NCBI GenBank assembly: GCA_030043315.1
Contig: JASHYA010000119.1
Coordinates: forward strand, 1 to 33,808
From: Acidimicrobiales bacterium
GTDB taxonomy: Bacteria; Actinomycetota; Acidimicrobiia; Acidimicrobiales; RAAP-2
Reading direction: 5' to 3'
DNA length: 33,808 nucleotides
In this document: piece by piece, positions 1,826 to 24,815 of the stretch
How positions within the stretch are numbered: the stretch's first letter is position 1
How the letters are laid out: each line of letters opens with the position of its first letter
Program-made: the position numbers and the translations under genes
Notes under the pieces: model-generated
What the model saw: only the letters and a program-made list of their open reading frames with translations
What the model was told of the DNA's origin: nothing
Database searches by the model: none

Positions 1826-2260
1826 TCACGCCCCGGTCGCCTCGCCCGCGACTCGACCGAAGAACCGCTCGACTGCGGCGACGTCGTCGGAGTACATGGT
1901 GACTGTGTCAATAAGGTCGTCGCCGTCGAAACGGAGGAGGATGAGCACTCTCGTGCGCGCGGTCGCTGTCTGGGACTGCATGCGGACGTCGACCAGGACT
2001 GCCACGTGATTGACGCCGACCATGAGGTCGTCCTGCTTGAACGGATCGAAATGACCACCCGTCCGCTCGGCGATGGCCAGGAGGTGGCGAGCGACCTCGT
2101 CGCGCCCGGAGAAGTCGCCTGCGAGCGTGTGGTCGCCCGGCACCCGGTAGGTCACGTGCGGCGAGAGCAGCTCGAGCGTCTCGGTCAGGTCGCGCCTTCC
2201 CAGGTGATGGAGGAAGCGCTCCACCTTCGCAACCCTGCTCGGATCGCTCGGACTGCTCAT
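1826..2260 (-). CDS. SnoaL-like / NTF2-fold protein
   Basis: The protein has 144 residues, the usual length for a single SnoaL-like (NTF2-fold) domain. It opens with VAKVERFLHHLGRRD and an LLSPHVTYRVPGD segment. A GRDEVARHLLAI helix and strands such as HVAVLVDVRMQSQTA follow. The tail FDGDDLIDTVTMYSDD is typical of the family, where the aromatic and acidic residues line a small-molecule pocket. Members include cyclases, isomerases and proteins of unknown role, so no reaction is assigned. The ATG at 2260 has GGAGGGG directly upstream. A 21-bp tandem repeat with palindromic cores lies 18-59 bases before the start and may be its operator. Confidence 0.75.
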   Translation of the reverse strand: MSSPSDPSRVAKVERFLHHLGRRDLTETLELLSPHVTYRVPGDHTLAGDFSGRDEVARHLLAIAERTGGHFDPFKQDDLMVGVNHVAVLVDVRMQSQTATARTRVLILLRFDGDDLIDTVTMYSDDVAAVERFFGRVAGEATGA

Positions 2261-2277
2261 GGCCCCTCCAGGGCGTT

Positions 2278-2319
2278 CATCGTCGGAGAGCGCTCGACCA
2301 TCGTTGGTGAGCGCTCGAG
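2278..2319. promoter_or_regulatory. 21-bp tandem repeat, candidate operator of the SnoaL-like gene
   Basis: Two adjacent 21-mers (2278-2298 and 2299-2319) are identical at 18 positions, and CATGGT begins a possible third copy. Each contains the perfect 8-bp palindrome GAGCGCTC. The 21-bp period equals two helical turns, so a regulator would meet both copies on the same face of the DNA. The location just upstream of the start at 2260 suits a repressor or activator site. Confidence 0.45.
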
Positions 2320-2340
2320 CATGGTAAATGGGGCGACGCC

Positions 2341-2380
2341 ACGGCGGAGACCTGTCTCACGAGTACGACAGCTCCGCCGT
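2341..2380. repeat. 9-bp inverted repeat with 22-base spacer
   Basis: ACGGCGGAG (2341-2349) is the exact reverse complement of CTCCGCCGT (2372-2380). It lies in the divergent promoter region and may be an operator or an RNA hairpin. GC-rich sequence makes a chance origin possible. Confidence 0.35.
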
Positions 2381-2685
2381 TCCGTGGTGACAACCGGGTG
2401 GCATCTCCGACGGATCCGAGAAGCGTTCCGGCGGAGAAGTCGATCGTGATGACGTGGTCACGTGGTCTCCTCGGTGAAATATAGGCCCCGGGGATGCCTC
2501 GAAACGCACCTCGCGTGGCCGCGCGACGCGTGCCGCTCGATCCGGCGCGGGCCGCGGCGGTCGCCTCTCGGGCGATCGACCAGGGCACAGGATCCCGTCC
2601 GTGGTGAACTCGGCAGCGTCGGGGCCCGGTCACCTCCCGCGGGCAATCTGGCGGGCTCGTGGGCAGTGCGATAGCACAGTGCGCA

Positions 2686-4119
2686 ATGTCCGAGAGCCAG
2701 GAGGCCGCGGTCGAACCCAGGGATAAGGGGACCGCCCTGCTCGTCACGCTGGCGATGGCCCAGTTCATGGTGGTGCTCGACTTCACGATCGTCAACGTGG
2801 CGCTCCCGTCGATCCAGCACGACATGCACGTCGCGACGACGACGCTGCAGTGGTTGGTGAGCGCGTATGCCGTCACCTTCGGCGGCTTCCTCCTCCTCGG
2901 CGGTCGGCTCGCCGACGTGTTCGGCCCTGCCCGGCTGTACCGGATCGGGCTCTGCATCTTCGTCCTCGCCAGCATCTCGGGAGGTTTGGCGGTCGAGCCC
3001 AAGCTGCTGCTCGCCTCGAGAGCCGTCCAGGGACTCGGCGCCTCGCTGCTCGCTCCGGCCGGCCTCTCCCTGCTCGTCACGAGTTGGACGGGCGAGCAGG
3101 AACGCAGCCACGCGCTCGGGGTGTACGGCGCCGTCGCCTCAGCCGGCTTCGCCGCGGGCGCAGTACTGGGAGGACTCCTCGTCGAAGTGACCTGGCGGCT
3201 CGTGTTCTTCGTGAACGTCCCCGTGGGCGCAGTCCTGCTGGTGATGTCGTGGCACCTGCTTCCCGCCGATCCACCGCGCCGGTCAGGGCGTCTCGACGTC
3301 CCCGGGGCGCTCATGGCGACCGCAGGGGTCGCCCTCCTCGTTCTCGGGGTGACGCTCGTCGGCGACACGCTCCGGCCGACGCAGCCGGCCATCGCCGTGG
3401 CCGCCGCGGCCATCCTGCTCGGCGCGTTCGTCGTCCGTGAGCGGAGAACCACCGCCCCCTTGCTCGATCTCAAGCTCCTGGAGGACCGGGGGATCCTCGG
3501 CGCCAACGAGTGCCTGCTCGCCTTCGGCGCCTGCAACGCGGCTGCCGTGCTCCTCATGACGCTCTACCTGCAGGAAGGTCGAGGCTTCTCGCCGCTCGTG
3601 ACCGGTCTCTGCATCATCCCGCAGGCGGTAGGGGCGTTCTCCCTCGCCGGTCCGGCCTCGAAGCTCGTTCCGGCGCTCGGTCCACGCCGTGCGCTCGCCC
3701 TGGGAATGTCGCTCGGCCTGTTGGCGCTGGCCGGCGCCGCCCTCAGTGTCTGGACCGGCACGCTCGCCGGGCTCCTCGTCGCACTTTTCGTCTTCGGGGT
3801 GTCCGCCCGGATCGTCCAGGTGGCGTCGGCGCTCGCAGGAACGCGCGGGCCGGTGGCCGCCCGGTCCGAGGGTTCGGCGAGCGCGGTGCTCACTGCGTCT
3901 CGTCAGGTCGGATCGGCGCTCGGCGTCGCCGTCGCGTCGGCCGTCCTCGTCACCGTCCATGCTCCAGAGCCGCACCGAACCACGGTGGCCATGCTCGTGG
4001 CCGCGTGCTTCGCCCTCGTCGGACTGGTCACGACGAAGGTCGTTCCGAGCGGACCCGGCCACCCGGTCGCGGCGCGGCTCGAGCACGCGTTCCACCGACA
4101 CGCCGGCGGCATGCCCTGA
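2686..4119 (+). CDS. MFS multidrug efflux transporter, DHA2 (EmrB/QacA) family
   Basis: This 477-residue integral membrane protein belongs to the proton-coupled drug-efflux family with about 14 membrane helices. TM1 carries the family motif LDFTIVNVALPSI. GGRLADVFGPARLY matches the loop 2-3 motif A, and GLGASLLAPAGLSLL matches the motif found in TM4. Hydrophobic segments continue at regular intervals to the C-terminus. It would export small hydrophobic compounds or drugs; the substrate is not predictable. ATG 2686 starts just before TM1 in the usual place. A GTG at 2659 would add nine residues, and neither start has a good ribosome binding site. It appears to be a single-gene unit with no regulator beside it. 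Confidence 0.88.
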   Translation: MSESQEAAVEPRDKGTALLVTLAMAQFMVVLDFTIVNVALPSIQHDMHVATTTLQWLVSAYAVTFGGFLLLGGRLADVFGPARLYRIGLCIFVLASISGGLAVEPKLLLASRAVQGLGASLLAPAGLSLLVTSWTGEQERSHALGVYGAVASAGFAAGAVLGGLLVEVTWRLVFFVNVPVGAVLLVMSWHLLPADPPRRSGRLDVPGALMATAGVALLVLGVTLVGDTLRPTQPAIAVAAAAILLGAFVVRERRTTAPLLDLKLLEDRGILGANECLLAFGACNAAAVLLMTLYLQEGRGFSPLVTGLCIIPQAVGAFSLAGPASKLVPALGPRRALALGMSLGLLALAGAALSVWTGTLAGLLVALFVFGVSARIVQVASALAGTRGPVAARSEGSASAVLTASRQVGSALGVAVASAVLVTVHAPEPHRTTVAMLVAACFALVGLVTTKVVPSGPGHPVAARLEHAFHRHAGGMP

Positions 4120-5309: not shown

Positions 5310-6365
5310 ATGAAGGCATTTGTGATGAAGGAGATCGGCAAGGTCGGCTTCGTCGAGAAACCCGTACCTCAACCTGGTCCCAACGATGCGATCGTGCGCA
5401 CGACGCGGGCGCTCATTTGTACCTCGGACTCGCACACCGTCGACGGCGGCATCGGCCCTCGAGAAGATCTCACGCTCGGCCACGAAGCCGTCGGCGTCGT
5501 CCACGCGACGGGGAGCGAGGTCAAGGCGTTCAAACCCGGCGACCGGGTGGTGGTCGGTGCGATCACCCCCGACTGGGGAAGTCCCGCCGCCCAGGACGGC
5601 TACTCCTCGCAGTCGGGCGGCCCCCTCGGTGGCTGGAAATTCTCCAACACCAAAGACGGGGTCTTCGCCGAGTACTTCCACGTCAACGACGCTGACGCCA
5701 ACATGGCGCGGATACCCGACACCGTGCCGGACGAGATGGCGGTCTACTGCTGCGACATGCTCTCGACCGGCTTCATGGGTGCCGAAAAGGGCAACATCCC
5801 GATCGGAGGGACCGTGGCCGTGATCGCCCAGGGCCCGGTGGGGCTGATGTCGACCGCCGGAGCGAAGCTGCGGGGGGCCGGATTGATCATCGGGGTCGAG
5901 TCGGTGCCACGTCGCAAGGAGCTTGCTCGCAGCTATGGTGCCGACGAGATCGTCGACTTCACGACCGAGGACGTGGTCGAACGGGTCCTCGAGCTGACCG
6001 GCGGCGAGGGCGTCGACACCGCGATCGAAGCCCTCGGCGCGGACGCGACCTTCCAGACGGCGGTGAAGGTGACCAAACCCGGTGGCACGGTATCCAACAC
6101 CGGCTACTTCGGAGAAGGGGAATTCGTCCGGATCCCCCGGGTCGAATGGGGAGTCGGCATGGCCGACAAGACGATCGCGACCGGCTTGTGCCCCGGCGGA
6201 CGTCTCCGCATGGAGCGGCTGCTGCGGATCCTCGAGACGAAGCGGGTGGACCCGACCCTCATGACCACCCACACGTTCGGTTTCGACGAGATGGAGCAGG
6301 CGTTCGAGGTCTCCGACAAGAAGCTCGACGAAGTGGTGAAACCGCTGATCGTCTTCGCCGCCTGA
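5310..6365 (+). CDS. Zinc-dependent secondary alcohol dehydrogenase (Thermoanaerobacter brockii type)
   Basis: This 351-residue medium-chain dehydrogenase oxidises secondary alcohols to ketones, or the reverse, with a nicotinamide cofactor. It closely resembles the T. brockii/C. beijerinckii isopropanol dehydrogenases throughout: GWKFSN-x-KDGVF, FHVNDAD, GPVGLM, GAKLRGAG and GGLCPGGRLRMERL-like blocks are present. Catalytic zinc ligands match as Cys37, His58, Glu59 and Asp149. The structural-zinc four-Cys lobe is absent, as in that group. The residue after the second Rossmann strand is Glu197, where the NADP enzymes have Gly (GSRP motif), so NAD preference is inferred. AAAAGGAG nine bases before ATG 5310 fixes the start. 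It converges on the G6PD gene with only nine bases between the stops. Confidence 0.88.
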   Translation: MKAFVMKEIGKVGFVEKPVPQPGPNDAIVRTTRALICTSDSHTVDGGIGPREDLTLGHEAVGVVHATGSEVKAFKPGDRVVVGAITPDWGSPAAQDGYSSQSGGPLGGWKFSNTKDGVFAEYFHVNDADANMARIPDTVPDEMAVYCCDMLSTGFMGAEKGNIPIGGTVAVIAQGPVGLMSTAGAKLRGAGLIIGVESVPRRKELARSYGADEIVDFTTEDVVERVLELTGGEGVDTAIEALGADATFQTAVKVTKPGGTVSNTGYFGEGEFVRIPRVEWGVGMADKTIATGLCPGGRLRMERLLRILETKRVDPTLMTTHTFGFDEMEQAFEVSDKKLDEVVKPLIVFAA

Positions 6366-13316: not shown

Positions 13317-14711
13317 TCAACCCGACTGACCGGTGGCGGTCGCCGTCACCCACGCCTGCGCCCCCATCTGCACGGCATCCCACGGACTGCCGAGTGGTGG
13401 GGTGTACGAGAGATCTAGGTCGCTCATGGTGTCGACGGTCATCTCGTGGAAGATGGCCGTCGCCGCGATGTCGATGCGCTTTGCCACCTCGGCGTGCTTG
13501 TGCCCGAACAGCTGGACCCCGAGCAGGCGGCCACTTGCTCTGTCGCCGGTATGGCGCATGGCAATGCGATGGCTACCGGGATAGTAGGCCTTGTGGTCGT
13601 CGGCCTCGCAGCCCACCGTCAGCGGGTCGAAGCCGACAGGTCTGGCCTCGGGATCGCGGAGGCCGGTGCGGGCCACCGCGTGGTCGAAGACCTTCACCAC
13701 CTGAGTGCCGAGGCTGCCGGCAAAGGTCCGGTCACCGCCGATCGCATTCTCGCCAGCGACCCTCCCCTGCTTGTGGGCGGTGGTGCCGAGGGGCAGGTAG
13801 GTCTCACCCAGCAGGCGGTGGTGCGTCACGACGCAGTCGCCTGCGGCCAAGACGCGGGGCAAGTTGGTGCGCATGTGAGCGTCGACGGCAATGGCACCTC
13901 GAAGCCCAAGGGTCGCGCCGGCGGACGCGGCCAGCTCCGCGTCGGGTCGGACCCCGACGACCACGAGGACCATGTCGACGCCCTTCACGATCGTCTCGCC
14001 GTCGGTGGTCAACGCTTCGACGGTGAGGCGCGCAGGACCGCTGGTCGCCTTGGCCACCGAGCGCACAGCGGTACTGGTGGTGACCTCGACGCCATGATCT
14101 GCGAGTTGCTCGTGCACCAGAACGCCGATCGCAGGGTCGACGGTAGGCAGCACCTCTGCGAGCCGCTCCATCTGAGTGACGGCCAAGCCCCTAGCCACCA
14201 GGGCCTCGGCCATCTCCAGTCCGATGTAACCCCCACCGACGATGAGGGCCTCGGTGGGCGCCTGCTCTTCCAGGGTCCGCATGACGGCGAAGGTGTCGCC
14301 CATCGAGTGCAGCAGGTGGACTCCGTCGTCCACGCCGAGCACCTCCAGCCCCGTGATCGGAGGACGGACCGGCAGCGCTCCGGTGCCCACCACGAGCTCG
14401 TCGTAGGCGAGCAGCTCCTCGCGACCATCGGGTCCGGTCACGAGGAGCTTGCGCCCCTCGACGTCGATGCGCCGGGCCAGCGTGTCGAGACGCAGGCTCA
14501 TTCCCGTCGCCTCGAGGTCGGTCGCGCTCCGGTGGGCCAAATTGCGCCAGTGGGTCACCTCCCCCGAGAGGTAGTAGGGAATGCCGCAGATCGAGAAGTT
14601 GGGATAGGCGTCTGCGACCACCACCGTGACGTCGGTTGTGGGGTCGAGCTCGCGGATCCGCAGGGCGGCGCTGATCCCGGCGTCGCTACCTCCGACGGCG
14701 ATGACGTGCAT
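13317..14711 (-). CDS. FAD/NAD(P)H-dependent oxidoreductase of the CoA-disulfide reductase/NADH oxidase family (ars locus)
   Basis: The protein has 464 residues, typical for single-Cys pyridine nucleotide-disulfide reductases. It has an N-terminal FAD-binding Rossmann motif (VGGSDAGISAAL, 6-17), the active-site Cys42 in NFSICGIPYYLSGE, and a second dinucleotide motif VGGGYIGLEMAEAL for NAD(P)H. An FAD-contacting RVLAAGDCV block and a C-terminal dimerisation domain follow. Family members reduce CoA disulfide, persulfides or oxygen. The substrate here is unknown, but genes of this type are often found in actinobacterial arsenic loci. It is the last gene of the leftward unit. ATG 14711 has AGGAG upstream, and that site overlaps the stop codon of the aquaporin gene (14719), so the two are translationally coupled. 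Confidence 0.84.
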   Translation of the reverse strand: MHVIAVGGSDAGISAALRIRELDPTTDVTVVVADAYPNFSICGIPYYLSGEVTHWRNLAHRSATDLEATGMSLRLDTLARRIDVEGRKLLVTGPDGREELLAYDELVVGTGALPVRPPITGLEVLGVDDGVHLLHSMGDTFAVMRTLEEQAPTEALIVGGGYIGLEMAEALVARGLAVTQMERLAEVLPTVDPAIGVLVHEQLADHGVEVTTSTAVRSVAKATSGPARLTVEALTTDGETIVKGVDMVLVVVGVRPDAELAASAGATLGLRGAIAVDAHMRTNLPRVLAAGDCVVTHHRLLGETYLPLGTTAHKQGRVAGENAIGGDRTFAGSLGTQVVKVFDHAVARTGLRDPEARPVGFDPLTVGCEADDHKAYYPGSHRIAMRHTGDRASGRLLGVQLFGHKHAEVAKRIDIAATAIFHEMTVDTMSDLDLSYTPPLGSPWDAVQMGAQAWVTATATGQSG

Positions 14712-14718
14712 GAGGCTC

Positions 14719-15552
14719 CTATCGCCTGCTCGGGTCGGTGCTCGCGGGCGCGGTGGCGTCTGTTGCGGCCCGGTCGCCGTCGCCGTCGGCGTGAGCCGGT
14801 GCGGCCCGGAGGGGTTGCGAGGCGACGCCGTCCGGAGCGGTTTCGGCGTCGTGTCGAACGAGGACCTCTGCCGCCTGCGCGGGCGTGATGTCGGGATAAA
14901 GAGCTCGGACCACGACGAACGCGAGCACGCCACCGACGATCTGAGCGGTGATGAAGCTTGGTGCCGACGACGGGGCGATCCCCGCGAAGGTGTCCGAGAA
15001 CATGCGGCCCACGGTGATCGCGGGATTGGCGAAGCTGGTGGAGCTCGTGAAGAAGTACGCCGCCCCGATGTAGGCACCGACGGCTGCCGGGGCGGTTCGT
15101 GACCGGCCGGAGCGGACCAGGGCGAAGATCACAAGCAGCAGGCCCAAGGTGGCGACGACCTCGGAGAGGAAGTGTGCCGGTGAGGCCCGGCTCTTGCTGG
15201 AGAACTCCACGGCATCCAGGGAGAACATCACGTTCGCCACCACCGCCCCGGAGATGCAGCCGGCCATCTGGGCCGGAAGGTACGCAGCTGCATCACGCCA
15301 GCTGAGCCCTCCGAAGGCGGCATCGACGAAGGACACGACGGGGTTGAAGTGACCACCGGAGACGGGCCCGAACATCAAGATGATGGCGAAGAGGCCAGCT
15401 GCGGTGGCTGCCGCGTTCTCGAAGAGCTGCAGCCCCGTGTTGCCGGGTGAGAGGCGTTGGGCGGCGATCCCCGAACCGATGACCACCGCCGCCAGGAACG
15501 CGCTCCCCAGGAACTCGGCGAACACACGGCGCCACAACGGAGCTTCGCTCAT
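14719..15552 (-). CDS. Aquaglyceroporin (MIP family), arsenite channel candidate
   Basis: This 277-residue membrane channel has the two half-helix motifs of the MIP family: HFNPVVSF in the first repeat (NPV instead of NPA) and FANPAITVGR in the second, with the pore Arg following. Six hydrophobic segments are visible before residue about 225, then a hydrophilic tail rich in Ala, Asp and Pro. Because it lies between arsI and a flavoprotein in an ArsR-linked unit, it probably conducts arsenite, as AqpS does in rhizobia; this is inference from context. No arsenite pump (ArsB or Acr3) is seen in the window. ATG 15552 lacks a clear ribosome binding site and lies 37 bases after the arsI stop. Confidence 0.86.
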   Translation of the reverse strand: MSEAPLWRRVFAEFLGSAFLAAVVIGSGIAAQRLSPGNTGLQLFENAAATAAGLFAIILMFGPVSGGHFNPVVSFVDAAFGGLSWRDAAAYLPAQMAGCISGAVVANVMFSLDAVEFSSKSRASPAHFLSEVVATLGLLLVIFALVRSGRSRTAPAAVGAYIGAAYFFTSSTSFANPAITVGRMFSDTFAGIAPSSAPSFITAQIVGGVLAFVVVRALYPDITPAQAAEVLVRHDAETAPDGVASQPLRAAPAHADGDGDRAATDATAPASTDPSRR

Positions 15553-15589
15553 GGTTGCGCGCGGCGGCGGACCGAACGTCCGCCTACCG

Positions 15590-16072
15590 CTAGCAGCATC
15601 TCGATGACGACGACTCCGCGCTCGCGCCAGACGCTGCAGGTTCGTCGACGCGGGCACAGCAGGTGCCGTCGCCGCGAATGCCCAACTCGACGGGTGCGTC
15701 GGCCAGGACCGTGTAGAGCTCCCAGGGTGCTCCATCGGGGTCATCGACCCACACCTTGTCCTGCACCGCGTAGCAGCACGTCGTGGTTTGCTGGTCGAGA
15801 GTGGCGAGACCCTCTCCTGCGAGCCGGGCACGGGCGCTCGCCACCTGGGCGGACGTTTCGACCTCGACGCCCAAGTGGTTGAGGGCTCCCTGCACCCCCG
15901 TGCCACGAGCCTCAGGCGTCTCGATGAGCACGAGCTTCAAAGGCGGCTCGGTGATGGCGAAGTTGGCATACCCCGGACGGATCTTCGCGGGCGGGCTGTC
16001 GAACAGCTTGGCGTAGAAGTCGATGGCCGCCTCGAGATCCGAGACGTTGAGGGCTAGCTGGACCCGGGGCAT
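15590..16072 (-). CDS. arsI: ArsI/CadI-type C-As lyase (VOC family dioxygenase)
   Basis: The protein has 160 residues, a vicinal-oxygen-chelate fold enzyme that cleaves the carbon-arsenic bond of trivalent organoarsenicals with Fe(II) and oxygen, giving arsenite. It opens with MPRVQLALNVSDLEAAIDFY, as in actinobacterial CadI/ArsI. Likely iron ligands are Gln5, His66 (LNHLGVE) and Glu118 (PWELY). The substrate thiols are the adjacent Cys99-Cys100 in TTTCCYAVQDKVWV. Two more Cys pairs (138-139 and 159-160) stand in the tail, a common feature that may bind metal. ATG 16072 has AAGGA at eight bases. It is the first gene of the leftward unit and has a well-formed promoter covered by palindromic operators shared with divergent arsR. 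Confidence 0.9.
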   Translation of the reverse strand: MPRVQLALNVSDLEAAIDFYAKLFDSPPAKIRPGYANFAITEPPLKLVLIETPEARGTGVQGALNHLGVEVETSAQVASARARLAGEGLATLDQQTTTCCYAVQDKVWVDDPDGAPWELYTVLADAPVELGIRGDGTCCARVDEPAASGASAESSSSRCC

Positions 16073-16087
16073 GGAGTCTTCCTTTTA

Positions 16088-16105
16088 CATCGACGGTTGT
16101 CTATG
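16088..16105. promoter_or_regulatory. ArsR operator, site 1
   Basis: CATCGACGGTTGTCTATG is an 18-bp imperfect palindrome with arms CATcGAC and GTCtATG. It covers the predicted arsI transcription start and the bases after it, where a bound repressor would block initiation. It matches site 2 in both arms. Confidence 0.65.
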
Positions 16106-16110
16106 CGTGT

Positions 16111-16139
16111 AGTATCTTCGTTACATCGACATATGTCAA
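16111..16139 (-). promoter_or_regulatory. arsI promoter
   Basis: On the minus strand a perfect TTGACA (16134-16139) is followed by a 17-base spacer and GATACT (16111-16116). The predicted start is near 16104, about 32 bases before the arsI ATG. Operator site 2 overlaps the -35 box. Confidence 0.65.
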
Positions 16140-16141
16140 TG
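16124..16141. promoter_or_regulatory. ArsR operator, site 2
   Basis: CATCGACATATGTCAATG is an 18-bp imperfect palindrome centred on CATATG. Its centre lies 36 bp from that of site 1. It overlaps the arsI -35 box and ends ten bases before the arsR ATG, so one site could repress arsI and autoregulate arsR. Confidence 0.68.
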
Positions 16142-16150
16142 GGAGATCGG

Positions 16151-16501
16151 ATGACCACTCGTTCCGTGCCCAAAGCCAAGCTGCTCTCCGACCCGCTGTG
16201 CTGCACCCCTCTGACCAAGGCTCCCCTGGCGGTCGCAGACGCCGAGGACGTGGCTCCCGTCCTCGCTGCACTCGGGGACCCGGTCCGTCTGCGGCTCCTG
16301 TCGATCGTGGCCGCCGAGGGCGAGGTATGCAGTTGCAACCTCGAGGAACCGTTGGGCAAGAGCCAGCCCACCATCTCCCACCACACCCGCGTCCTCGCCA
16401 ACGCCGGCCTGATCGTCGGGGAGAAGCGCGGCAAGTGGACCTGGTGGCGAGTCGTCCCCGAACGCCTGGCCACCCTCCGCCACGTTCTCGGCGGTTCGTA
16501 A
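16151..16501 (+). CDS. arsR: ArsR-family arsenic-responsive repressor
   Basis: The protein has 116 residues with a winged helix. ALGDPVRLRLLSIV is the usual entry helix and GKSQPTISHHTRVL the recognition helix. Candidate arsenite thiols are the adjacent Cys17-Cys18 (DPLCCTPL) plus Cys60 and Cys62 (VCSCNL). The N-terminal pair with a Cys near the recognition region recalls the Corynebacterium glutamicum ArsR arrangement rather than the plasmid R773 type. When the metalloid binds, the repressor should leave the two palindromes upstream. ATG 16151 with GGGAGA upstream fits family length; in-frame ATGs at 16133 and 16139 are less likely because they lie in the operator. It is divergent from arsI. 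Confidence 0.9.
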   Translation: MTTRSVPKAKLLSDPLCCTPLTKAPLAVADAEDVAPVLAALGDPVRLRLLSIVAAEGEVCSCNLEEPLGKSQPTISHHTRVLANAGLIVGEKRGKWTWWRVVPERLATLRHVLGGS

Positions 16502-18755: not shown

Positions 18756-19340
18756 TCACGTTGCGTGCTTGGCCAGGTCGCGCAGGACGAGCGAGGTGAT
18801 GATGTCGAAGATGCCGAGGACGATGAACCACACCCCAAGGAGGACCGCCAGGACGGTGAGCGAACCAACCGGTGCGGCGACGACAACGATTCCGGCTATG
18901 AGGCTCAGCACACCGAAGGCGATTTGCCAACCACGACCGGCGCGGTCCTCTTGGTTGAACCCCGCCATGAGTGACACGACTCCCTGAGCGATCCAGGTGA
19001 TCCCCACAAGCAGTGCGATGAGGACCCGGGTGACATCGAGATGACGGATCAGCACCACCCCGAGAACGACGAACATCAAACCGACGATGGCCGGCCATCC
19101 GCGGTGACCGGTTGAAGGGTCGAGGGCCCGGATCAGCTGAAACAATCCAGAGACAACGAGCAGGACTCCGACCAGAACTGCAATCACGTTGAGTGAAGTG
19201 GTGGGGTGCACTACGACAACGACCCCCAGTGCCAGAGTGACGATACCCACGAACAGCCCCACCTGCCATGACGTCGCGAGGGCAGCCACGCTCATTCCCG
19301 TCGCATCCCCAACCTCGCCGCCGCCAGACCGGTGAGACAT
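18756..19340 (-). CDS. HdeD-family (DUF308) membrane protein
   Basis: The protein has 194 residues and six hydrophobic segments in three repeated hairpins, as in HdeD, which is linked to acid resistance in enterobacteria. Typical pieces are LFVGIVTLALGVVVVVHP, VLVGVLLVVSGLFQLIRAL, GLMFVVLGVVLI, GITWIAQGVVSLMAG and GVWFIVLGIFDIITSL. The start is ATG 19340, supported by GAGGAG at seven bases; a longer frame upstream has no such support. It stands beside the SHOCT/DUF6325 genes, which fits a general stress theme, and is followed upstream by the two-component genes in the same direction. The biochemical function is unknown. Confidence 0.83.
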   Translation of the reverse strand: MSHRSGGGEVGDATGMSVAALATSWQVGLFVGIVTLALGVVVVVHPTTSLNVIAVLVGVLLVVSGLFQLIRALDPSTGHRGWPAIVGLMFVVLGVVLIRHLDVTRVLIALLVGITWIAQGVVSLMAGFNQEDRAGRGWQIAFGVLSLIAGIVVVAAPVGSLTVLAVLLGVWFIVLGIFDIITSLVLRDLAKHAT

Positions 19341-19546
19341 CGATTGCTCCTCGCTCAACTGGTGCCCGTGCAGCTTCACCACCTTAGCAACTACCTCGTG
19401 CCCCACCCATGAAATCATTCCGACGGGACGGCCGCTGGAGGCGTTCAGCGCGGCCGTGAACCCCGGCGGCTCATCGCACAAGGCGACCGACCGTTGCACA
19501 GGAGGTCGCATAACCCGGAAGCTGTGCGATGTTGCAGACAGGCGGA

Positions 19547-20215
19547 TCAGGCGAGGCCGTGGTCCCGCGCGTAACGCACTGCGCTCGACCTGTCCGATGA
19601 GCCCGTCTTGGCGAAGATGCGGTTGACGTGGCTCTTCACGGTGTGAGGACTGAGGTAGAGGGACGCGGCGATCTCGGGATTGGCCATGCCGCTGGCCATC
19701 ATGACGAGGACCTCTGCCTCTCTTTTCGTGAGGCCGTCGGGTAGTCGGTCGGGGAGCTCCCGAAGCGGGTTATCCGGACCACGAGTGGCGGCACCGACGA
19801 GCGCGGCTTGGATCGAGCGGTCGAGAACGGCGAGACCGGTGACGGAGCTCCGCAGCGCGTGGGCGATGTCGGCGCGGTCAGCGTCTTTGGTCAGATAGCT
19901 GCGCGCGCCGGCGCTGAGTGCGGCGAGGACAGACGCGTCGTCGGCGTAGGTGGTGAGCACGACGATTGCGATCTCGGGGTGGTGCTGACGGAGATGGTGG
20001 GTGGCTTGGATACCGTCGACCCCTGGCATGTGGAGGTCGAGGAGGATGGCGTCGGGGTGGTGTCGACCGCAAAGATCGATCGCTTCTTGACCGTCGGCGG
20101 CGGAAGCCACCACCTCGATGTCTGGCAGGAGATCGAGCAGCAGCACCAGGCCTTCGCGGACGCTCGCCTGGTCGTCGGCGACGATGATCCGCACGGGAGC
20201 CTGTACCTCGGTCAT
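19547..20215 (-). CDS. NarL/FixJ-type response regulator (LuxR HTH)
   Basis: The protein has 222 residues. An N-terminal receiver domain carries the acidic pair Asp14-Asp15, the phosphoacceptor Asp60 (AILLDLHMPG), the conserved Thr in VLTTYAD and the Lys in YLTKDA. A C-terminal LuxR-type helix-turn-helix begins at GLTKREAEVLVMM, with NPEIAASLYLSPHTVKSHVN as the recognition region. It is the partner of the kinase just upstream: its ATG (20215) overlaps the kinase stop codon in an ATGA, so the two are translationally coupled. The likely targets are its own operon and the divergent ABC transporter, through the inverted repeat at 21416-21450. The inducing signal is unknown. Confidence 0.9.
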   Translation of the reverse strand: MTEVQAPVRIIVADDQASVREGLVLLLDLLPDIEVVASAADGQEAIDLCGRHHPDAILLDLHMPGVDGIQATHHLRQHHPEIAIVVLTTYADDASVLAALSAGARSYLTKDADRADIAHALRSSVTGLAVLDRSIQAALVGAATRGPDNPLRELPDRLPDGLTKREAEVLVMMASGMANPEIAASLYLSPHTVKSHVNRIFAKTGSSDRSSAVRYARDHGLA

Positions 20216-21363
20216 TGGGGGACCTGGGCCGTCACCACCCAATTACCTTCGCTCGCGCGAGCCTCGAGCGAACCGCCGATGAGCAGGAGCCGTTCGCGCA
20301 TGCCTGCGAGGCCGTAGCCGCCATTGGCGGTCTCCAGGCAGGGCCGGTCGGACGGGCCGTTGCTGAGGGGACTGAGCACCCTGAGCGTCGTTGGGCCATC
20401 GGAGAAGTCGAGCCGCATGGCGACCGGCTGGTGAGGGGCGTGCTTGGCCGCATTGACGAGGGACTCCTGGGCGGCGCGGGTCAATGCCAGCGCGGCGTCG
20501 GGCGTGAGGGGGCGTGGCCGTCCAGTGACTTCGAGGCTGACGGGGGTGAGGTACTGGTGCCGGTGCTCGCTTCCGAGCTCGTCGAGCGCATCGGCGAGCG
20601 GCGGGGTGTCGGAGCGCAGTGCCTGGAGTGCTCGACGGGTCTCGGTGAGCCCTTCGGCGGCGAACCGTTGGGCCCGGTTGAGCAGGTCGACGGCCCGTTC
20701 CACGTCACCTTGGTCGGTCAGCACCGCCCGGGCCGCTTGGATCTGGACCCCGAGTGAGCCGAGCGAGTGGGCGAGCACGTCGTGGATCTCCCGGGCGATG
20801 CGGTTGCGCTCGTCGAGCGCGGCGGCGCGGCTTTGCTCCGTGCGCAGTTCTTCGGCGTTCGCCAGGAGCGCTGCCGACTGTTCGGCCTGGACGCGGTAGC
20901 CGAGGAGCAGCCGACCGAAGAGGAGCCCGACGATCATGAGCATAGGAACGCCGACCAGTCCCCACAGGCCGACGTCGTAGGCGAGGCCGCCGGCATCGAC
21001 GGCCAGGACACCAGCCGCGGCGACCAAGCACGCGGTCCACAGCCCGAAGTCGTACGCGGCGACACCCGCGGCCATGGCGGCGAGGACGACGAAGGGCGCT
21101 CCGCTGCTGGTGAGCGCCGCCCACCCGCAGGTCACCACGCTCGCTGCGAGGAGATAGGGCAGCATCCGGCGTAGCAGCGGCCGGGACGGGGAGCGCTGAA
21201 CCACCACCCGCACTCCTAAGGCCAGCGCTCCGATGACGGAGGCATCGACCAAGTCGACGAGGTTCCGGGTCACCCCGTACGGGAGGGTGAACACCGAGAT
21301 CCCGACGACGACCACGACGGTCGCGATCGCCGCCCAGGTAACCCGGTTCAGGCGGCTCGACAC
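20212..21363 (-). CDS. HisKA_3 sensor histidine kinase
   Basis: The protein has 383 residues. The N-terminal 155 residues hold about five or six membrane helices with almost no extracellular loop, so the signal is probably sensed in the membrane. The dimerisation and phosphoacceptor motif is DERNRIAREIHDVLAHSLG with His194. The ATP-binding domain has LVNAAKHA (N box) and NGGYGLAGMRERL (G box). This is the typical NarX/DesK-like kinase that pairs with NarL-type regulators. GTG 21363 has no ribosome binding site, but GATAAT stands six bases upstream, as expected for a leaderless mRNA. Its neighbour on the other side is a MacB-type ABC exporter, a frequent target of such systems. Confidence 0.9.
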   Translation of the reverse strand: MSSRLNRVTWAAIATVVVVVGISVFTLPYGVTRNLVDLVDASVIGALALGVRVVVQRSPSRPLLRRMLPYLLAASVVTCGWAALTSSGAPFVVLAAMAAGVAAYDFGLWTACLVAAAGVLAVDAGGLAYDVGLWGLVGVPMLMIVGLLFGRLLLGYRVQAEQSAALLANAEELRTEQSRAAALDERNRIAREIHDVLAHSLGSLGVQIQAARAVLTDQGDVERAVDLLNRAQRFAAEGLTETRRALQALRSDTPPLADALDELGSEHRHQYLTPVSLEVTGRPRPLTPDAALALTRAAQESLVNAAKHAPHQPVAMRLDFSDGPTTLRVLSPLSNGPSDRPCLETANGGYGLAGMRERLLLIGGSLEARASEGNWVVTAQVPQ

Positions 21364-21369
21364 CTTTCA

Positions 21370-21375
21370 ATTATC
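21370..21375 (-). promoter_or_regulatory. -10 box of the kinase gene, leaderless start
   Basis: GATAAT on the minus strand is separated by six bases from the GTG start at 21363. This places transcription at or next to the start codon. No convincing -35 box is visible at 17-18 bases, which would fit activator dependence. Confidence 0.5.
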
Positions 21376-21415
21376 GCCCAATCACGACCGCCGGCCCTCA
21401 GCCCGGAGGGTGGAT

Positions 21416-21450
21416 CCCGGTATGAATCGGTCGGCGTACGTCATACCGGG
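21416..21450. promoter_or_regulatory. 10-bp perfect inverted repeat in the two-component/ABC divergent region
   Basis: CCCGGTATGA (21416-21425) and TCATACCGGG (21441-21450) are exact reverse complements separated by 15 bases. The repeat lies 53 bases before the kinase start and 89 bases before the ABC ATPase start. It is the best candidate site for the NarL-type regulator encoded alongside. Confidence 0.6.
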
Positions 21451-21538
21451 CTCGTCCCGTCCTCGTCCCAGCGCGGGCCTTCGAAACCCAACCGGCGGGC
21501 TGACGACAGCGCCGGGCTCGGGCCGCAAACTCGTCAAC

Positions 21539-22285
21539 ATGACAGCGACTACTACGAACGTCGTCGAGGCCGCACGGGCCATCGATCTCGTCAAGGCCTA
21601 CGGTGCCGGCCAGGCTCAGGTCCACGCGTTGGCCGGGGTGTCGGTCCGCTTCGAGGCGAGCCGGTTCACCGCGGTCATGGGACCGTCGGGGTCGGGAAAG
21701 TCGACCCTCATGCACTGCATGGCCGGCCTCGACCGCCCGACCTCAGGGCAGAGTCTCATCGAAGGCACGGACCTGACTTCGCTCGGCGACGGCCGGTTGA
21801 CCGAGCTGCGCCGTGACCGGATCGGCTTCGTCTTCCAGTCCTTCAATCTGGTGCCGACCCTCACCGCGGCCGAGAACATCACCCTGCCCGTCGATCTGGC
21901 AGGTCGAAAGGTCGACAAGTCATGGTTCGATCACCTGGTCACCCAGCTCGGCCTCGCCAACCGCCTCGGTCACCGTCCCAGTGAGATGTCGGGGGGACAA
22001 CAGCAGCGCGTGGCGTGCGCCCGAGCCCTCATCAACCGTCCGGCGCTGGTCTTCGCCGACGAGCCGACCGGCAACCTCGACTCCAACGCCTCCGCAGAGC
22101 TGCTCACCTTCTTGCAGCACTCCGTCGCGGAGATGGGCCAATCGATCGTCATGGTCACCCACGACCCGCACGGCGCGTCCTTCGCCGACCGGGTGGTGTT
22201 CCTCTCGGACGGGCGGGTCGTCGACGAGCTGGAAGCCCCGACGGCGGACTCGGTCCTCGAGCGGATGCGGACCCTCGGATCCTGA
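21539..22285 (+). CDS. ABC transporter ATPase, MacB/LolD type
   Basis: This 248-residue nucleotide-binding subunit has all motifs of an active ATPase: Walker A GPSGSGKST, Q-loop FVFQSFNL, signature MSGGQQQRVACARAL, Walker B LVFADEPTGNLD and the switch His in MVTHD. PTLTAAENI after the Q-loop is typical of the MacB/LolD/FtsE group, which drives FtsX-like permeases rather than channel-type importers. The permease gene begins two bases after its stop codon, so they form one operon. ATG 21539 lacks a ribosome binding site; earlier in-frame ATGs lie in the operator-like repeat and are unlikely. It probably exports, or protects against, a peptide or lipid-active compound, with expression controlled by the divergent kinase/regulator pair. 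Confidence 0.9.
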   Translation: MTATTTNVVEAARAIDLVKAYGAGQAQVHALAGVSVRFEASRFTAVMGPSGSGKSTLMHCMAGLDRPTSGQSLIEGTDLTSLGDGRLTELRRDRIGFVFQSFNLVPTLTAAENITLPVDLAGRKVDKSWFDHLVTQLGLANRLGHRPSEMSGGQQQRVACARALINRPALVFADEPTGNLDSNASAELLTFLQHSVAEMGQSIVMVTHDPHGASFADRVVFLSDGRVVDELEAPTADSVLERMRTLGS

Positions 22286-22286
22286 C

Positions 22287-24815
22287 ATGGGACGGGTCAC
22301 CCTCAAGGGCATCCTCGCCCACAAACTGCGTCTGGCGCTCACTGCCATCGCCATCATCCTCGGCGTCACCTTCATCGCCGGGACCTATGTGCTCACCGAC
22401 ACGTTGCACGCCACCTTCGACGCCCTTGTTGGCTCCATTTACCAGAACATCGACTTCCAGGTCCGCGGCGTTGCCCAGTTCCCGACCAAGGACGCAGCCA
22501 CGGCGACACGCAACCCCATCTCCGAGTCGCTCCTCGCCACCGTCCGCAAGGTGCCGGGGGTAGAAGTGGCGGAGGGAACAGTCTCGGGATCCGTCCAGTT
22601 CGTCGCTCCGGACGGGACGCTCATCGCCAATGGCGGGGAGCCGACCCTCGGAGTGAACTTCGACCCGAACCCCCAGGTCTCCGATCTGCGAATCGTCGAA
22701 GGCCGGGCGCCTTCGGCTCCCTATGACGTCGTGATGGACGCTGCCACCGCCCAGAAGTACCACTTCCACGTCGCTCAGCGCGTGAAGATCCTCTCCGCGC
22801 TCGGGACGGACACCTTCACGATCTCGGGAATCGCCCAGTACGGCTCGGCGAACACGCTGGCCGGCGTGACCCTGGCCGGCTTCACGCTCCCAACGGCCCA
22901 GCGGCTCATGCAAGAACCCAGGCAGCTGAGCAACATCAACATCGTGACCCGGCCGGGGACCGACCAGGCAGCCGTCGGACGGGCCATCGCCCGAGTGCTG
23001 CCAAAGGGCGTGCAGGTGGTGACCGGGAAGACCGTGCTCGCCGAGCAGACCAGCTCGATCGACCAGGACCTGTCCTTCTTCTCCACCGCGCTCCTCATCT
23101 TCGCCCTGATTGCCCTCTTCGTCGGAGCCTTCACCATCTTCAACACCTTCTCGATCCTCGTCGGCCAACGCACCCGGGAGCTGGCTCTGCTCAGGGCCGT
23201 GGGCGCCACCCGCCGCCAGGTGTTCCGCTCGGTGCTGGCCGAAGCGGCGATCGTCGGGCTCCTCGCCTCGGGGATCGGGCTGGGTCTGGGCGTCCTCACT
23301 GCGCTCGGCATCGAGGAGCTCCTGCGCGGTTTCGGGATCACCCTGCCGGCAGGAGCCCTCGTCTTCGAGGCCCGCACCGTGATCGTCTCACTGGCTGTCG
23401 GCGTCGGCGTCACGGTCGTCTCTGCCCTCGGCCCGGCACGCCGCGCGGTGCGTGTCCCGCCTGTCGCCGCCCTGGGCGACCGCGAGCTCGACGCCGGGTT
23501 CCCGGCTCGACGTCGAGCGGTCGCCGGTGCCGTCCTCTTCGCCCTCGGAGTGGTCTTCCTCGCCTCCGGCCTGGCCAAGCCCGAGGTGAGCCTGGTCGGT
23601 CTCGGCGCGGCGGCCATCTTTCTCGGCGTCGCGATCCTCGCGCCGACCTTTTCACGACCGCTCGCAAGCGTCATCGGTCGCCCGTTCGTGCGGGTCCTCG
23701 GGGTAGGAGGCCGGATCGGCCGGGAGAACTCGATCCGCAACCCCCGCCGGACCGCGCAGACGGCAGCGGCGCTGATGGTGGGCATGGCGCTGGTCGCGGT
23801 GATGGCGATCTACAGCGCCTCTGCCTCGCGCTCGACCACGGGCAGCTTCGACAGCGCGGTGCGGGCGGACCTCATCGTCTCGACCACCTCGAGCGACGAG
23901 GCCGGGACCGTCAACCCGGGACTCCCGCACGTGCTCGCCTCCCTTCCCGGCGTCACCGCCTCGACGGTCGTCTACGGCGGCCAGTTCGAGGTCGGCCAGA
24001 CAGTCGAGCAGTTGAAGGCCATCTCCAGCGGAGGCCTGGCCGACACGATCATCGTCCACATGGTGAGCGGGAGCCTCGGATCGCTGCGGCACGGCAGCCT
24101 GCTCGTCGACTCCACGACGGCTCGTCGAAACCATCTCGCCGTCGGCGATCCCGTCAGGGTGAAGTTCGCCCTCAGCGGACCGACCACGATGCGTGTCGGG
24201 GGCATCTACCAGCCCAACGCGGTCATCGGCAGCTACCTCATCGGCGACGCCTTCTACCGGAGCCACTACGCCGATCCCACCCCTGGCGCTGTTCTGCTCG
24301 ACACCGACGGCAGCTCCCGGGTCGAGATGCTCGTGCGGCACGCCGTCGCCCCCTACCGCGGCCTTCAGGTCCAGACGGCCGCGGAATTCAAGAAGTCCGA
24401 GACCGCACAGGTCAACCGGGTTCTCGGGTTGGTCTACGCCCTTCTGGCGCTCGCCGTGCTCATCGCTCTCATCAGCATCGTGAACACGCTCATGCTGTCG
24501 GTGCTCGAGCGCACTCGCGAGATCGGGCTCCTGCGTGCAGTCGGCATGCGGCGCCACCAGGTCCGCACCATGATCCGTTCCGAGGCGGTGATCCTCGCCG
24601 CCTTCGGCGCCATCATCGGGTTGCTTCTCGGGGCCGGACTCGGAGTGGCCCTGGTCGCGTCCCTCGGCTCCCAGGGTGTGACGATCACCACAGTCCCAAT
24701 CGCGGAGTTGGTCGCGTTCTTCGTGCTTGCGTGCGCACTTGGTCTCGGAGCGGCGACCTGGCCGGCCCGTCGGGCGGCCCGGCTCGACGTTCTCCAGGCC
24801 ATCGCCACCAACTGA
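22287..24815 (+). CDS. ABC transporter permease with two FtsX domains
   Basis: The protein has 842 residues. It is a fused, internally repeated permease of the MacB/FtsX superfamily. TM1 (about 12-32) is followed by a large extracytoplasmic core domain (35-260) and a first FtsX domain with three helices (265-390). A second membrane segment near 455-490, a second core domain (500-700) and a final FtsX domain (about 710-840) follow. The two halves repeat the cytoplasmic coupling helix: ELALLRAVGATRRQV and EIGLLRAVGMRRHQV. This layout is common in actinobacterial transporters beside a single ATPase. The substrate is not predictable; antimicrobial peptide or lipid export are known roles of relatives. 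Confidence 0.9.
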   Translation: MGRVTLKGILAHKLRLALTAIAIILGVTFIAGTYVLTDTLHATFDALVGSIYQNIDFQVRGVAQFPTKDAATATRNPISESLLATVRKVPGVEVAEGTVSGSVQFVAPDGTLIANGGEPTLGVNFDPNPQVSDLRIVEGRAPSAPYDVVMDAATAQKYHFHVAQRVKILSALGTDTFTISGIAQYGSANTLAGVTLAGFTLPTAQRLMQEPRQLSNINIVTRPGTDQAAVGRAIARVLPKGVQVVTGKTVLAEQTSSIDQDLSFFSTALLIFALIALFVGAFTIFNTFSILVGQRTRELALLRAVGATRRQVFRSVLAEAAIVGLLASGIGLGLGVLTALGIEELLRGFGITLPAGALVFEARTVIVSLAVGVGVTVVSALGPARRAVRVPPVAALGDRELDAGFPARRRAVAGAVLFALGVVFLASGLAKPEVSLVGLGAAAIFLGVAILAPTFSRPLASVIGRPFVRVLGVGGRIGRENSIRNPRRTAQTAAALMVGMALVAVMAIYSASASRSTTGSFDSAVRADLIVSTTSSDEAGTVNPGLPHVLASLPGVTASTVVYGGQFEVGQTVEQLKAISSGGLADTIIVHMVSGSLGSLRHGSLLVDSTTARRNHLAVGDPVRVKFALSGPTTMRVGGIYQPNAVIGSYLIGDAFYRSHYADPTPGAVLLDTDGSSRVEMLVRHAVAPYRGLQVQTAAEFKKSETAQVNRVLGLVYALLALAVLIALISIVNTLMLSVLERTREIGLLRAVGMRRHQVRTMIRSEAVILAAFGAIIGLLLGAGLGVALVASLGSQGVTITTVPIAELVAFFVLACALGLGAATWPARRAARLDVLQAIATN

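Follow-up and report, generated by a model that had tools for sequence, protein, structure and literature searches.

A predicted operator shared by a NarL-type two-component system and a divergent MacB-type ABC exporter in an Acidimicrobiales bacterium

LnrJ and LnrK of Bacillus subtilis are a HisKA_3-type kinase and a LuxR-type regulator, and NarL of Escherichia coli uses 7-2-7 dyads. In the LnrJK-LnrLMN system of B. subtilis, which provides resistance to linearmycin and amphotericin, lnrLMN is described as the only target of LnrK (PMC7472640). The locus described here, found in a 33,808-nt stretch of Acidimicrobiales DNA that is referred to as the window in its entire length, likewise places a two-component system beside an ABC transporter, but where the Bacillus genes form a single operon in the order lnrJKLMN, the window has a divergent MacB/FtsX-type exporter and an operator predicted to be common to two promoters. 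A second B. subtilis system, YdfHI, controls the RND-superfamily exporter YdfJ, according to the title of Serizawa and Sekiguchi 2005, a reference in PMC5417439. It belongs to a different phylum from the window system and resembles, in exporter type, the version with an MMPL exporter seen in relatives L019, L172, and L174-L176. With NarL/NarP of E. coli, the window system shares a LuxR/GerE-type regulator, seven-base half-sites, and dyads of two half-sites, whereas its proximal dyads are 7-3-7, its half-site is TCANNCC, and its core arms lie 15 bp apart. The closest solved-structure relative of the window regulator is VraR, and MadR and MadS are the best NCBIfam relatives of the regulator and kinase, but the respective scores of 142 and 85 bits are far below the equivalog cut-offs of 300 and 500 bits, and the pair is therefore not a member of MadRS.

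The domain search places both halves of the two-component system on the minus strand. The regulator (19547-20242) has a receiver (PF00072, 6.5e-28) and a LuxR/GerE helix-turn-helix (PF00196, 3.9e-16), both above cut-off, and is of the NarL/LuxR type, while the sensor kinase (20212-21363), with a hydrophobic N-terminal half, has the HisKA_3 dimerisation domain (PF07730, 3.1e-15, above cut-off) of a partner kinase. The exporter genes together span 21539-24815 on the plus strand and encode a MacB/LolD-type ATPase (21539-22285) and an 842-aa permease with two MacB_PCD/FtsX modules (22287-24815), with PF00005, PF02687 (FtsX), and PF12704 (MacB_PCD) all above cut-off. The two-component system and ABC exporter claimed in an earlier note made from the sequence are thus both present, on either side of the repeat discussed below. 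The pair falls short of the NCBIfam equivalog cut-off for the macrolide exporter MacB, as the ATPase and permease reach 200 and 96 of the 966 bits set for it, a cut-off for a model of a fused ATPase-permease against which split genes score low. A DUF308 membrane protein (18756-19511) adjoins the regulator downstream on the same strand. Further away in the window (13317-16501) is an arsenic-resistance-like cluster with an ArsR/SmtB-type regulator, an ArsI/CadI-family enzyme that scores above its curated cut-off, a MIP-family channel, and a CoA-disulfide-reductase-like flavoprotein; its ORFs overlap as printed and probably begin too far upstream.

The start codons of the divergent kinase (GTG, 21361-21363) and ABC (ATG, 21539) genes leave a gap of 175 bp. 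In it, two 10-bp arms, CCCGGTATGA at 21416-21425 (half-site GGTATGA at 21419-21425, kept upstream of orthologous systems) and TCATACCGGG at 21441-21450 (half-site TCATACC at 21441-21447), are separated by a 15-nt spacer. The earlier note described a perfect 10-bp inverted repeat with this spacing at 21416-21450, upstream of both operons, and was exact in sequence, coordinates, and place. The 10-bp repeat is the core of a putative composite operator and not the whole site; two further dyads had been overlooked. The 33.8-kb window has no other perfect inverted repeat with arms of 10 bp or more and a spacer of up to 40. The pattern of the core was absent from 100 dinucleotide shuffles, and with mismatches allowed its symmetry reaches 18-nt arms that are 83% complementary.

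On the kinase side, a -10 element, GATAAT on the minus strand (21370-21375; plus-strand ATTATC), lies 43 bp from the core arm. The kinase GTG follows it by 6 nt, so this promoter is probably leaderless, and a consensus promoter scan gives no -35 for it, as the earlier note had also observed. A kinase-proximal dyad at 21398-21414 (minus strand) reads TCCACCC-N3-GGGCTGA towards the kinase; its centre lies 43 bp from the start codon of the kinase, and 22 bp separate the dyad from the -10. The exporter side carries the dyad CCCAACC-N3-GGGCTGA (21487-21503, plus strand), kept in orthologous loci L170 and L204. The centre of this dyad is 44 bp away from the start codon of the ABC gene, and the distance from the dyad to a candidate -10, CAAACT (21526-21531, plus strand), is again 22 bp. 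This hexamer is a weak match, has GAGACT as its counterpart in L170 and L204, and precedes the start codon by 7 nt; both divergent promoters appear to be leaderless. Both come with a dyad of their own at about -43, and the core repeat lies at about -70 for the kinase and -106 for the exporter. The outer dyad pair was recorded by the first repeat scan as a 16-nt inverted repeat, 81% complementary, with arms 74 nt apart, and the dyads share no more than five of the seven positions of the core half-site (TCANNCC). Regulator relatives were gathered from genome contigs and whole genomes, and spacing was compared in the twelve loci with an alignable right arm, window included, leaving out L006, L009, L179, and L180, a subclade in which the half-sites are spaced differently. 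All 12 have a -10-like hexamer beyond the right arm, at 43 bp in eight, 44 bp in three, and 45 bp in one, and such hexamers are almost absent at other distances within 75 bp of the arm; the GATAAT singled out in the earlier note sits exactly at the conserved 43 bp. The stretch from arm to -10 contains a conserved dyad, TCMACCC-N3-GGGCTGA, whose distance to the -10 is 22 bp in most of the 12 loci. With a dyad, 22 bp, and a -10 on either side, the window has, at the sequence level only, an operator common to the sensor and exporter promoters. We consider it likely, with a probability of about 0.8, that the repeat is the core of a bidirectional operator for the adjacent NarL-type regulator, through which the latter would activate both its own operon and the MacB-type exporter.

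The site persists while the divergent partner varies. This partner is an ABC exporter in the window, L170, and L204, an MMPL exporter in L019, L172, and L174-L176, and a small membrane protein in L004, L006, L007, L009, L171, L179, and L180, with no Pfam match for the divergent proteins of L004 and L006, the two scanned. The ABC genes of L170 and L204 are orthologous to that of the window and also divergent (ATPase 69% and kinase 61% identical in L170; 74% and 59% in L204). A second operator copy, with core and dyads intact, occurs in a Frankia MAG (L203; G468:C200, about 2187-3100) ahead of the gene for a small membrane protein and of a kinase that looks truncated, and this locus is apparently a decaying duplicate. 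It might be argued that the regulator binds the site mainly for autoregulation and that the exporter is a recent neighbour under other control. The kinase-side -10 with its spacing is the best conserved feature, the exporter -10 is weak, and ABC paralogues away from the system (L205-L207 and L209) have no clear site, including members of the same ABC family at L205 and L206. We nevertheless regard this as unlikely, as the exporter-side dyad is kept with equal 22-bp spacing in all three loci that have this ABC next to this kinase (window, L170, and L204), each of which thus carries the complete unit on both sides, and a divergent-side dyad is found in L019, L203, and L004 as well. Regulator control of the exporter, and probably of the regulator itself, as the earlier note had predicted, is supported by the clade-bound site and the fixed -10 spacing and, for the exporter, because a second element of the same design and spacing lies on its side.

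The first clear parallel to the window was L019, whose regulator is 67% identical and which has GGTATGA-N15-TCATACC, with equal spacing and a different spacer sequence, between the orthologous system and the divergent exporter. Other orthologues have upstream arrays of GGTAYSA half-sites, often direct repeats that recur about every 10 bp, opposed by a TCATACC or TGGTACC in inverted orientation. All 15 orthologous loci of the tree whose upstream region is intact have arrays of GGTATGA/GGTACCA upstream of the system, and none of the eight outgroup loci does, while five loci (L002, L169, L173, L177, and L178) are uninformative, their upstream region being cut, rearranged, or unclear. GGTAYSA, which like the dyad was defined on the loci where it was counted, occurs 36 times in 15 upstream regions vs 1.5 expected from shuffles, and 0 times in ten comparison regions, two of them from the uninformative L002 and L178. 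The one independent test, of a single 7-mer, is that of the window's GGTATGA, which in the 14 other loci has 14 matches upstream (5.3 kb) and 6 in the remaining 141 kb; 209 permuted 7-mers gave a mean of 0.22 matches in the same loci, but one had 11, which is why counts of a single word do not settle the matter by themselves. In the regulator tree, the 15 site-bearing loci and the five uninformative ones fall into one clade (support 96/96) that spans several actinobacterial orders, and the eight loci without the site all fall outside it, including a paralogue from the organism's own genome that is 54% identical to the regulator. Two cultured species, Leekyejoonella antrihumi and Actinospica acidithermotolerans, are among the carriers of the site. 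L005 keeps the site beside its regulator, with no kinase homologue detected next to it. The half-site enrichment at orthologous systems, together with the single regulator clade, supports the view that the site goes with the response regulator and not with the exporter. A different transcription factor, encoded elsewhere, could in principle bind it, given that the link between regulator and site is drawn from sequence and that the 7-3-7 dyads differ from the core half-sites and could bind another protein. This seems quite improbable, however, as the site tracks regulator phylogeny over several orders while the neighbours change, and no second regulator is seen at all these loci. Where the arms are mainly TCATACC, the recognition helix of the regulator has the residues KSH, and most loci with TGGTACC arms have KTH at this place, possibly a specificity change, with L005, L007, and L171 as exceptions. 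At L169 (G489:C138), the end of the permease (62% identical, residues 570-841) lies directly against the final 40 kinase residues and a complete regulator, which we read as a deletion or misassembly that took out the operator region.

An RNA hairpin, terminator, or leader element is a very remote prospect: the repeat does form a good RNA fold (z of about -2.5 to -2.7), but it has no T-run, terminator call, or Rfam match, both inferred start sites are downstream of it, relatives show direct repeats and spacer lengths of 15-18 nt, and the fold of L172 is hardly stronger than that of shuffles (z -1.2), so that none of these readings is supported. Chance, in whose favour only the small size of the repeat speaks, is negligible as an explanation, with zero such repeats expected in the window, and is already refuted by the conservation of the repeat with fixed promoter spacing.

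The predicted bidirectional operator looks dedicated to this locus, with no larger regulon in the scanned, partly incomplete assemblies. A wide regulon based on the exact 15-bp-spaced pattern was rejected, since the organism's own assembly (2.8 Mb, 59% complete) contains the core repeat as its sole match even with two mismatches allowed in the 7-bp arms, and the pattern occurs in 2/397 genomes of the phylum. A direct-repeat scan of nine genomes found zero-mismatch matches only at two-component loci and one-mismatch matches near the control level. Across seven genomes, the full dyad unit without mismatch occurs only at such regulator loci, and most two-mismatch matches look like background. The genome of L143 (G467:C695), which has an orthologous regulator, also contains a GGTACC-containing repeat cluster (about 5980-6035) upstream of a gene that we read from its sequence as NmrA-like; this cluster is not linked to the system.

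As to mechanism, we infer that the adjacent regulator is most likely the binder, that it uses core and dyads alike, and that binding leads to activation. The phosphorylated regulator would bind the core arms (TCATACC/GGTATGA half-sites) with high affinity and would also occupy the weaker proximal dyads (TCMACCC-N3-GGGCTGA) cooperatively, centred at about -43, from where it would contact and recruit RNA polymerase at both -35-less promoters. The system would in this manner turn on its own operon on the minus strand, a positive autoregulation, and the MacB-type exporter on the plus strand. Activation is suggested by the missing -35 elements and by the position near -43, which is typical of activators. 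By analogy with LnrJK (PMC7472640), one guess is that the inducer may be membrane-active compounds.

No relevant description of the motif or of the regulator clade was found in the open-licence literature. Whether these loci represent an undescribed actinobacterial regulator clade, with a composite, near-symmetrical operator that stays with the regulator while the exporter is exchanged among ABC, MMPL, and small membrane proteins, is in our judgement evenly balanced. The operator of such a clade would consist of the core inverted repeat flanked on each side by a promoter-proximal 7-3-7 dyad, always 22 bp away from a leaderless promoter that lacks a -35. The data presented here provide a sequence-level operator rule, comprising half-sites and their spacing to the -10, for a regulator clade in several actinobacterial orders. 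With this rule, autoregulation and exporter control can be put directly to the test, and targets can be predicted in further genomes. If the broader reading is true, exporters that are exchanged while the operator stays constant would illustrate how sensing modules gain new outputs.
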